A stretch of 64,000 nucleotides of DNA from Jaapia argillacea MUCL 33604 (lineage: Eukaryota; Basidiomycota; Agaricomycetes; Jaapiales; Jaapiaceae): the NCBI GenBank assembly GCA_000697665.1, contig KL197719.1, positions 815,968 to 879,967 on the forward strand, written 5' to 3'. The notes below the pieces were generated by a model. That model was not told where the DNA came from. It was given only the letters and a program-made list of their open reading frames with translations, and made no database searches. A program made the translations under genes and the position numbers. Of this stretch, positions 597 through 4,338 are shown piece by piece (the first letter of the stretch is position 1; every line of letters begins with the position of its first letter).

Positions 597-2283
597 TCAA
601 GCCACCCCACGCACACCCCACACTCGAGTCAAGAGTAATCTGACGATCTCCTCCGGTCCTGGCGTTTCCACAATACAAGCCACCCCTTCAATATCCCTGG
701 CATGCGGAGCCTCTTCGACATCCACTTGGGCAGGGACAGCAGAGGACTCAAAACGTGCATGCTCTACATGCATTCGCTCGAGCTCCGCTTGTACTTGTGC
801 CCGATTAGCGCCTGGTGAATATGCACTCTGCAAATCCTCTCGCCTGTCGACCACCAGCATACCCCTTGTTAGCTCTCCAGTTCTAAAGGAGTGAGCAAAC
901 TCAGTTTGTGTGGGGACGATGTCGAGAAAGGAGACAAACCTTTCCACTTGAAACTTCCTCTTCACAGCATTCCAGCCCTGTCTAAGCCGGGGTATTTCCC
1001 CTTCTCCTTGTGAATGGACAGGGGGATTCTCGATGGCACACCAAATGGCCACTATATCGTGAAGCTCCATAGCATCTTTCCCGAATTCCAGCATCACTTC
1101 TCTCGCTCTCTCCAGAAATGAGCTGGTGAAGTGATGGAGCGGAGGCTTGTCTTCAGCCTTGGATGGAGCCTCTGTGGACTCAAAAGTGTTATCCACCTTA
1201 TCCTTGTACAACGGGAAAGGCAATTCGTGCGGGGTAGTAATGTCCAACGGGAGTAGAAGGAAACGCTCCAATGGTAAGCCCAAAGTCGCCTCAGGAGGAA
1301 GCAAGACTTCTTCGACAGCATGAGGATCGGCAAAGAAATTGACTACGTCGGAGGAATTAGTCTCTTGGGGGGTGAAGGAAAACATAGAAGCACTTACACT
1401 CAGCGACTGGGGAAGTGTTCCCCGGCACGTCCAAAGCACCTCCCATACAAACCACACGACCAATACCGTCCCGCACAGCCGAAACGTTGGCACGCAGTAG
1501 GTATGCAAGATTGGTGAGAGGTCCCAAGGCGACGTACGTTAGCTTCCTTGGGTAAGACGTTATCAGCTCGAGCGTCAGATCAATTGCTGAGCGGTTTGAG
1601 GGTCGGAGGTATGGGTGATCCGTCAATTGATCTGGGAGATTCACATTCAAATCAGGGTGTCGTTCTGTGATGCCGCCGAGCCCATCCCTAACTGATGTTG
1701 GTGCGCTGCAGAGACAGGAAGAATATTGATGTGTAGAGGACCTACCTTCCGTGGAAATATTGTGCGCTGTGGATACTTCCTTCGAGAGGAGCTTCGGCAC
1801 CTTGCACAATGAATGGCTTGTTAGCTGAGGAGAAGTTGGGAAACCGGTCCCTTTCTTGAGGATATTGTTCCAGATGCTTAGCAACAGCTTCGTATATCTT
1901 GAATACGTTGATACTTCAAGCAGTCAATGAGACGCATTTGCCGCACAGCGTCTATCGACAACTCACTACGAGGAGTGAGCATCTGTGTTCCCTAGAGTGT
2001 ACATCGAACTTGTCAACCTTACACTCGCAGCTGGGAACGATTGAATGTTCACCAAAAGATACGATGAAAGCGAGGATTTCAATCTCCGGGGACGCCAGAG
2101 CCAGTAAACTATGAGTGGTAGATAAGTCAGTCGAATGACAGGCATGAGCGAGCGGGGTCCCTCACATTGCCAACGCATCGTCAACTCCAGGATCTGTGTC
2201 AACTGGGGCGATGTGCTATTGAGCATGGATGCGATGGAGACAGGGAGTCAAATCTCACTGATGATGGGTATCCTTTCTGTCAT
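597..2283 (-). CDS. Inosine-uridine preferring nucleoside hydrolase
   Basis: Predicted ribonucleoside hydrolase, which cleaves the N-glycosidic bond of nucleosides to release free base and ribose for purine and pyrimidine salvage in the cytosol. The N-terminus reads MTERIPII, then after a first intron DTDPGVDDALA, the family's calcium and ribose binding motif, then a short segment on SPEIEILAF. Further downstream are GPLTNLAYLLR and MGGALDVPGNTSPVAE, and near the C-terminus ELHDIVAIWCAI, which holds the family's C-terminal HD motif, followed by RGMLVVDRR. The start is the ATG at 2283; its exon ends after about 25 nt at a GTGAGAT donor. Several introns interrupt the gene. The tail of about 70 residues after RGMLVVDRR is longer than in compact bacterial enzymes. 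The start codon overlaps the stop of an upstream leader frame. Family identity is firm; substrate preference is not readable. Confidence 0.88.
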
Positions 2284-2790
2284 CGTGATGGACAGAAGGT
2301 GGCAAGTCTTATCAGATGTTCTTCAAATCTTTCTTTACCAGATTGCCTGTGAACGTTGTCGGGCTTGCAAGAACTCAATGAACCCGACGCGACATTTGGT
2401 ACCCCATTCAAGTTCTGATATATGTAATGAACAAATATAGGACAAGAGGGGTGACACACTACGGTACTAATGTACTTCCAGTTCGCAATACCGTGCTGAT
2501 GCATATGCATGTTGCGTCCAACTTGAACCTGAAATGGAAGGAGTCAGCATTCTACCCAGGTACGTAAGGATGAAGAGTAGGTCAGAGATCTTGGTGGAAA
2601 AATCGTCTCATTGGGTTGCCCCTCTGAAGTAGCAAATATAACACAGTAACATCATACCAAAAGGAAGTGGGCGAAGCGGGATGAATGTAGATACTGGTTG
2701 CGACTTACCATTGTAACTACGTGTCACCAACGACACGTCGAGGTTGAGAGGTGGAGGCACAAGAAATTCCTGAAAATACGGCTCTGTCAT
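2280..2790 (-). CDS. Putative 89-residue spliced leader ORF hosting a U24 snoRNA
   Basis: Three exons can be joined by canonical sites: 2790-2709 (starting MTEPYFQEFL), 2528-2476 and 2414-2280. The donors are GTAAGT and GTACAT and the acceptors are TTTCAG and ATATCAG. The spliced frame is open for 89 codons and ends at TGA, 2282-2280, overlapping the nucleoside hydrolase ATG as ATGA. I do not recognise the protein. The first intron (2708-2529, 180 nt, far longer than the local 50-60 nt) contains a U24-like snoRNA, which supports real transcription and splicing on this strand. Alternatives are that these are 5' untranslated exons of the nucleoside hydrolase, or a noncoding snoRNA host whose open frame is chance. 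A different reading of exon 3 would stop at 2337-2335. Transcription is well supported, translation is not. Confidence 0.4.
2578..2660 (-). ncRNA. SNR24: Box C/D snoRNA U24 (snR24-like), second copy
   Basis: On the minus strand, C box ATGATGT (2655-2649) and D box CTGA (2585-2582) bracket about 70 nt. Internally there is TATATTTGCTACTTCAGA (first guide plus D'), a C' box AATGAGA, and CCACCAAGATCT directly before the D box. From memory, yeast snR24 contains the same guide elements: ATATTTGCTACTTCAGA and CACCAAGATCTCTGA. The guides pair with a conserved LSU rRNA segment containing AGATCTTGGTGG and GTAGCAAATAT, so the RNA should direct 2'-O-methylation there. It lies in a 180-nt intron of the leader region upstream of the nucleoside hydrolase. 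It is nearly identical in its functional elements to the copy in the RACK1 intron, but spacer bases differ. Ends are approximate. Confidence 0.85.
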
Positions 2791-3012
2791 AAGCTCCAGC
2801 TGTTATTGTCGAGACATTGACTGCTCCGGGGCCGGGGGCGACGTTGTGAACGCTTTGAAGATGGTTGAGAGTCTGGTTGATCGCGCCACCAGCGAATATA
2901 AAGGTCGTGACGTGACTAGCTGTATAGTACATGTCACAGTGGCTTCCCGCCTGCGTCCCTTGAACACATTGACCGTCCACCGTCGTTCAACTCATCCCCG
3001 CCCTCAACTAAA
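2791..3012. promoter_or_regulatory. Divergent promoter between the U24-hosting leader and RACK1
   Basis: A gap of 222 bp separates the two divergent starts. A TATAAA element at 2897-2902 lies on the plus strand about 110 bp upstream of the RACK1 start codon and is a candidate TATA box for that highly expressed gene. The minus-strand leader must start transcription from the same gap. Both transcripts carry a U24 snoRNA in an intron, so co-regulation from a shared promoter is plausible, but this is inferred from layout only. Confidence 0.45.
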
Positions 3013-4338
3013 ATGGAGTCGCTGCGTTTCCTCGGTTCATTGACCGGCCACAAGGGCTGGGTCACCGCTATCGCGACCTCATCCGAAAATCCCGATATGA
3101 TTTTGACCGCTTCCCGAGGTACTTGGAACCCCATACACATTACTCCCTGAAAGCTTAGCTGAGTTCAGTGATCACCTCTTCGCAGACAAGACCATCATTG
3201 TATGGCAGTTAACGCGCGACGAGGACACCTATGGTTACCCCAAACGAATTCTCCACGGACACAACCACTTCGTCTCCGATGTTGTCATTTCTTCGGACGG
3301 TCAATTCGCCCTTTCCTCTTCCTGGGACCATACCCTCCGCCTTTGGGATTTGAACACCGGTGTTACCACGAGGCGATTCGTTGGACACACCTCTGATGTC
3401 CTCTCCGTCAGCTTCAGCGCTGACAACCGACAAATCGTCTCTGGCTCAAGGGACAGATCCATCAAGCTTTGGAACACTTTGGGAGAATGTAAATATGATA
3501 TCAAGGATGATGGTCACACCGAGTGGTGAGTTCGCACTCAAGTTTAGTTGCCTGGATCCTGATTGACCGCGAATTCGTTCAGGGTGTCTTGCGTGCGCTT
3601 CAGCCCGAATGTCTTGAACCCTGTTATTGTCTCCTGCGGTTGGGATAAGGTCGTGAAGGTGAGCCCTTTTCTGCGGTCGCTATTCCCGATCTAGCGTTTC
3701 TTCTTCTTGGTATGATGTATTGTGTTATATTCGCTACTTCAGAGGGTTCAGCCCGATGAGACAGATTTTCCACCAAGATCTCTGACCTTCCTTATTTTAC
3801 CTCCCATGCCATCACCCTCTGTCTTCTATTTGTTCTATTTACTGACTTCATCACAGGTCTGGGAACTTTCAAAGTTCAAGCTCAAGACTAACCACTACGG
3901 TCATACCGGCTATATTAACACCGTCTCTGTCTCCCCCGATGGCTCCCTCGCGGCCTCCGGCGGTAAGGACGGTATCACGATGCTCTGGGATCTCAACGAG
4001 GGCAAGCACCTCTACTCCCTCGAAGCCGGTGACATTGTCAACGCTCTCGTCTTCTCGCCCAACCGCTACTGGTTATGTGCCGCTACTGCTAGTTGCATCA
4101 AGATCTTCGACTTGGAGAGCAAGTGGGTCCATTTCTCCGATATCTCACATGCCACCGAGGGTTAACGTTACTTTCGCTCTCCAGGTCTATTGTTGATGAA
4201 CTCAAGCCTGACTTCGTCGAAACCGGCGCAAAATCCCGGGACCCAGAGTGTGTGTCCCTTGCTTGGTCCGCCGACGGGCAAACCCTTTTCGGTGGCTTTA
4301 CAGATGATGTTGTGCGAGTATGGTCTGTGTCTTCATAA
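3013..4338 (+). CDS. RACK1: RACK1/Cpc2/Asc1, WD40 ribosome-bound scaffold
   Basis: Guanine nucleotide-binding protein beta-like scaffold that sits on the 40S subunit near the mRNA exit and links signalling (protein kinase C, TOR) to translation. Exons read as 3013-3118, 3186-3525, 3583-3658, 3857-4122 and 4185-4338 give 313 residues, exactly the usual family length. The start [20 protein letters not shown] is followed by seven WD40 repeats with recognisable GH...WD units, for example [46 protein letters not shown], and the final [15 protein letters not shown]. The third intron (3659-3856, 198 nt) is unusually long and houses a U24 snoRNA. The gene converges with the conserved unknown gene at 4482, with 143 bp between stop codons. 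Identity is essentially certain. Confidence 0.97.
3708..3788 (+). ncRNA. SNR24: Box C/D snoRNA U24 (snR24) inside RACK1 intron 3
   Basis: C box ATGATGT at 3712-3718, C' box CGATGAG at 3754-3760 and D box CTGA at 3782-3785. The guide before D' is TATATTCGCTACTTCAGA and the guide before D is CCACCAAGATCT. A short GG/CC pair closes the ends. The element and its position match baker's yeast, where snR24 lies in the intron of ASC1, the RACK1 orthologue. By analogy it guides 2'-O-methylation of LSU rRNA at the segment containing AGATCTTGGTGG. The D' guide has a C where the second copy and yeast have T (ATATTCGC versus ATATTTGC). Release is expected by debranching and trimming of the spliced intron. 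Confidence 0.9.

Follow-up and report, generated by a model that had tools for sequence, protein, structure and literature searches.

The locus described here probably encodes two paralogous box C/D snoRNAs of the U24/snR24 family, borne in introns as inverted local copies of one another and guiding 2'-O-methylation of the LSU rRNA. It lies in a 64,000-nt stretch of DNA (the window) from Jaapia argillacea MUCL 33604 (KL197719.1:815,968-879,967, forward strand; GCA_000697665.1, an assembly of 43.7 Mb). The sequence, the boxes, the intron signals and the presence of both copies within the assembly are matters of direct observation; from them we infer expression of the RNAs, splicing of the minus-strand intron, methylation of the rRNA and the direction of copying.

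Two U24-like elements on opposite strands

Each copy aligns with the Rfam model RF00069 (SNORD24, U24/snR24) over its full length (model positions 1-76 of 76), and the two are mutually inverted, with 5' ends 1047 bases apart. The first-pass annotation had proposed two U24-like C/D elements on opposite strands at a spacing of about 1 kb, and this holds (Table 1). The minus copy scores 36.9 bits (E = 0.0016 with 8 kb searched and 0.013 with the whole window searched); the plus copy, in RACK1, is the lower scorer at 32.2 bits (E = 0.022 and 0.17, respectively). Neither attains the family's curated gathering score, 41 bits, so that the check set out in the first-pass annotation, a score above the Rfam threshold, fails for each of them, and for that reason both are termed U24-like. 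No Rfam family reaches its gathering score anywhere in the window, and the RF00069 cut-off appears to be a strict one for fungal members. In the full-length alignments the consensus features of the family (C box, D box, D' and D guides) are present in both copies, a single D' base of the plus copy departing from them. It is the occurrence of two copies together, more than the RF00069 E-values, that excludes chance.

Table 1. Features of the two U24-like elements and their surroundings (window coordinates)
Feature	Position	Strand	Basis or remark
U24/SNORD24-like C/D box snoRNA, minus copy	2578..2660	-	RF00069, 36.9 bits
C box ATGATGT, minus copy	2649..2655	-	sequence, alignments
D' guide ATATTTGCTACT, minus copy	2628..2639	-	alignments, predicted duplex; base 2634 is the family consensus
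C' box ATGAGA, minus copy	2606..2611	-	sequence, alignment
D guide CCACCAAGATCT, minus copy	2586..2597	-	alignment, predicted duplex
D box CTGA, minus copy	2582..2585	-	sequence, RF00069 alignment
U24/SNORD24-like C/D box snoRNA, plus copy	3707..3789	+	RF00069, 32.2 bits
C box ATGATGT, plus copy	3712..3718	+	sequence, alignments
D' guide ATATTCGCTACT, plus copy	3727..3738	+	alignments, predicted duplex; C at 3732, consensus U
C' box ATGAGA, plus copy	3756..3761	+	sequence, alignment
D guide CCACCAAGATCT, plus copy	3770..3781	+	alignment, predicted duplex
D box CTGA, plus copy	3782..3785	+	sequence, RF00069 alignment
Predicted 180-nt host intron of the minus copy	2529..2708	-	GTAAGT, CTGAC branch site, CAG
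First coding exon, nucleoside hydrolase	2259..2283	-	own ATG 2283; next exons from 2202 and 2108
RACK1 gene, 313 aa	3013..4338	+	coding exons 3013-3118, 3186-3525, 3583-3658, 3857-4122, 4185-4338
RACK1 third intron, 198 nt, host of the plus copy	3659..3856	+	donor GTGAGC; phase 0 after residue 174 (VVK/VWEL)

When almost the entire minus intron (2540-2720, minus strand) was searched as DNA against the assembly, the only matches were the query's own location and the copy in RACK1 (E = 1.6e-21, 87% over 89 nt). The RF00069 search of the same assembly, in which the best 59 of 8297 first-look candidates were scored and whose counts are lower bounds, gave at least four matches: the two copies and weaker ones at 27.6 and 21.7 bits. 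No other credible U24 copy is found among the best candidates scored. The third-best match (C81:21384-21447, 27.6 bits) carries most of the D guide without the CTGA D box and is probably due to chance; the fourth was absent on re-search at E up to 1. At a loose RF00069 threshold 11 of 14 control genomes also give matches, none of them above the cut-off.

Predicted host introns

The first-pass annotation placed each copy in an intron, and each does lie, in the sense direction, within a predicted one. Strict donor signals surround 12 of the 18144 background positions; the minus copy passes this GTAAGT rule, which was set post hoc, once the minus intron was known, and the RACK1 copy, with its GTGAGC donor, fails it. 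Both copies pass with a relaxed donor (63/18144) and under loose intron rules (835/18144), and none of the three rules is satisfied by either copy on the antisense strand.

The plus-strand host is RACK1; the best solved match of the encoded protein is Gib2 (4d6v_A, E = 3.4e-180). The snoRNA lies in the sense orientation in an intron that, lined up by eye, falls at the position and in the phase of the yeast snR24 intron (yeast residue 179), the Asc1 protein being split, on the sequence and exon length that we take it to have, at MVK/AWNL. This agreement in codon and phase argues that the RACK1 copy probably occupies the ancestral locus. Yeast snR24, alike in family and in host gene, is intronic in ASC1 (PMC4848094).

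The minus-strand host is less straightforward. The predicted intron had been assigned to the leader of the nucleoside hydrolase, which has its own ATG; the first three coding pieces of this gene, once spliced together manually, align with PF01156 starting at profile position 1 (E = 1.1e-09), and frames further downstream match this family too. The region 3012-2283 contains 14 upstream ATGs; 10 of these lie outside the minus intron and precede the hydrolase start, so many that a simple leader of that gene is doubtful. A transcription start located further downstream would leave fewer upstream ATGs, and a separate noncoding or short-coding host on the minus strand appears as likely as a hydrolase leader. 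Peptides from the minus exons match no Pfam family (searched at E up to 1 and at E up to 0.001), and such a peptide matches only its own place in the assembly. If the minus intron is spliced out, 83 codons within 2284-2711 (ATG/GTTCAAGTTGG...) come into one open frame, which stops just short of the start of the hydrolase and matches no Pfam family. The 222 bp formerly described as a shared promoter are the gap between ATGs at 2790 (minus strand) and 3013 (plus strand), not a mapped promoter; a TATAWA box occurs between 2700 and 3020 on the plus strand only, at 2897.

Conservation between the copies

In a gapped alignment of the two copies, 75 of 85 columns are identical. All of the elements had been said to match; this is correct for the C box, the C' box, the D guide and the D box, and incorrect, by one base, for the D' guide. 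In the box and guide columns (C box, D' guide and box, C' box, D guide, D box) 1 of 46 differs, against 9 of the remaining 39, 5 of the 9 being substitutions (one-sided Fisher, 0.003). When one copy is modelled as neutral since the duplication, the probability of finding no more than one difference in 46 is 0.025 if indels are counted as differences and 0.20 for substitutions alone. The earlier claim of selection on both copies is favoured by these figures, not proved by them: the boxes and guides are held more tightly than the spacers, and on substitutions alone a single neutral copy would be compatible with the data. Between D' and C' both copies have a GGG/CCC stem, whose loop has changed. 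With this stem counted as constrained, an addition made post hoc after inspection of the data, the comparison becomes 1/52 against 9/33 (Fisher, 0.0007; P = 0.0045 for the model with one neutral copy).

The D' guides and pairing with rRNA

The one base by which the D' guides differ is T at 2634 in the minus copy and C at 3732 in the RACK1 copy. Duplexes were calculated against LSU rRNA target letters that we take to be correct. With these assumed letters the D' guide of the minus copy is predicted to form a 12-bp duplex of -14.4 kcal/mol, and that of the RACK1 copy a duplex of -10.2 kcal/mol with an internal mismatch; the D guides, being the same, each form a predicted 12-bp duplex of -20.1 kcal/mol. 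In this calculation the C at 3732 weakens the predicted D' pairing of the RACK1 copy with 25S rRNA.

A box C/D guide selects as its target the base paired to the fifth position before the D box, and applying this rule would assign each guide to its site: the D guide presumably to the equivalent of yeast C1437, and the D' guide to those of A1449/G1450, in the rRNA numbering and letters that we assume. The numbering and the letters vary in print, the three yeast sites being given as C1437, C1449 and C1450 in PMC4848094, and the sites of yeast U24 as Cm1435 and Am1447 in a table of PMC3511168.

What stands opposite the variable D' base in the fungus itself bears on this argument. In one eukaryotic LSU fragment the base is A; the pattern by which the fragment was found left this critical base free and specified the remaining 25 of its 26 positions. 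The contig that carries it is filed as viral in IMG/VR (L048:4115-4503) and ends in eukaryotic LSU rRNA (RF02543, 324.6 bits), from which it follows that this end is not viral. The rDNA of J. argillacea gave no match in the assembly by pattern or by similarity, searches that were both run without a positive control. With G at this position in its rRNA, pairing would favour the RACK1 copy (-16.2 kcal/mol, and -14.1 kcal/mol for the minus copy); as the assembly yielded no rRNA of this fungus, such a compensating change opposite the D' difference is possible.

Proposed mechanism and origin of the pair

Each snoRNA would be spliced out with its host intron and trimmed to about 80 nt, and the trimmed RNAs, bound by C/D proteins, would guide 2'-O-methylation of the LSU rRNA at the sites just named. 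The plus copy lies in the conserved RACK1/ASC1 host intron, and the minus copy would be an inverted local copy set into an intron of a divergent transcript. The D guide is retained in both and the full D' guide in the minus copy, with the RACK1 copy mismatched at D' and possibly in the course of losing that guide; such a mismatch is as expected if duplication relaxed one of the guides.

The age of the pair is a separate matter. That both copies are old, the pair being ancestral in a fungal group with one member lost elsewhere and no recent local duplication involved, is a tentative alternative that we consider less probable; it differs from the preferred reading on age only, and the two are not mutually exclusive. 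The intron flanks outside the snoRNA are no more alike than shuffled sequences (P = 0.40 on the 5' side and 0.91 on the 3' side, with a minus intron of 178 nt, two bases short, in this test). There is consequently no trace of a recently duplicated segment, and, the introns being dissimilar outside the snoRNA, either the copying involved the snoRNA alone or it took place long ago. Two U24-type snoRNAs also occur in N. crassa and S. pombe, which speaks for an old pair; the N. crassa genes are on different chromosomes, however, with one site listed for each, which speaks against it (PMC2780460). So does Pleurotus ostreatus, for which one SNORD24 is reported (PMC5040776, Table 2; located with BLAST+ and Infernal against Rfam), although a second could have been missed.

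Whether the minus copy works at all is the other question. It might be a recent, non-functional copy or an unspliced leftover that has yet to decay, with only the RACK1 copy working, and we regard this as unlikely. The minus-exon peptides without a Pfam family, the 10 ATGs that precede the hydrolase start outside the intron, and the neutral model that is not rejected on substitutions alone are all compatible with a dead copy. Against it, the minus copy outscores the RACK1 copy, its D' guide carries the consensus base, the intron predicted around it is a strong one with strict signals of a kind rare in the background, and its boxes have stayed intact against the 9 differences in the spacers of the pair. 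That its host is a former protein gene with a Simiate/ABITRAM-like start, decayed and kept only to carry the snoRNA, is very improbable: the idea came from a by-eye resemblance to a human protein sequence that we assume to be right, and local alignment to that protein scores no higher than with shuffled sequences (P = 0.19 and 0.44), the protein has no match in the assembly (a search without a positive control), the minus-exon peptide matches only its own place, and GCV_H, the domain that the assumed protein matches, gives two nearby matches on contig C2 and none in the window.

Relation to known U24 genes

The two U24 guides are combined in budding yeast and plants, and other lineages have them split: S. 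cerevisiae has a single U24 with both guides, and N. crassa CD50/CD51, S. pombe U24/U24b and human U24/U76 are pairs of U24-type snoRNAs between which the guides are divided (PMC2780460). J. argillacea resembles these pairs in having two U24-type RNAs in one genome, and differs from yeast in its second copy, which lies on the opposite strand at a distance of about 1 kb. Its guides are nevertheless not divided as in U24/U24b and U24/U76, since the D guide is perfect in both copies and the D' guide is weakened, not lost, in one; the N. crassa pair, with one site each, differs from one in which both D guides are kept and one D' guide is changed. In P. ostreatus, also a mushroom, SNORD24 is likewise intronic, its host gene being named only as g3964 (PMC5040776, Table 2).

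PMC3596301 and PMC3511168 describe, respectively, fungal introns that carry snoRNAs and turn up at new positions, and the mobility of eukaryotic snoRNAs; compared with such intron-to-intron movement, the Jaapia copy is inverted, adjoins its likely parent, and the parent has been retained. The layout is unusual; its parts, and the way in which such copies move, are already known. A duplicated U24 beside RACK1 had been thought undescribed. Two U24-type genes per genome are in print (PMC2780460); an inverted U24 pair flanking RACK1 is not described in the titles and abstract openings of the literature matches listed.

It is conceivable, though doubtful, that the locus records a guide RNA in the process of splitting in two, the RACK1 U24 losing D', the new copy having taken it over, and both serving the D site. 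If this were true, the rRNA marks would depend on two different host transcripts, and a pair consisting of an intact and a weakened D' guide would make the intermediate step of a guide split directly testable. The locus would likewise be a case of a snoRNA that has reached a neighbouring intron and is still present in its conserved RACK1 host. A dead second copy would make the case an ordinary one.

Searches of other sequence collections

A U24 pattern that includes D' and D parts has no match in the viral contig collection. A looser pattern picks out 6 stretches in viral contigs and 32 in genome contigs, and among these 38 only one (L041, by script and by eye) also shows a D' guide; it was the only one of the 38 given to Rfam, where it passes RF00069, and its contig, filed as bacterial, is no help for dating. 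Three pattern matches for the RACK1 protein in viral contigs include no relative, and the searches of the viral and genome contig collections brought up no fungal relative for comparison. The one U24-bearing contig, from a Verrucomicrobiaceae metagenome-assembled genome (JAIYDP010000141.1; L041:5760-6432), has SNORD24 at 41.1 bits, above the gathering score, together with sub-threshold matches to snoU83 and SNORD88, all on one strand and within 700 nt, and is probably a eukaryotic snoRNA cluster that was binned with a bacterium.
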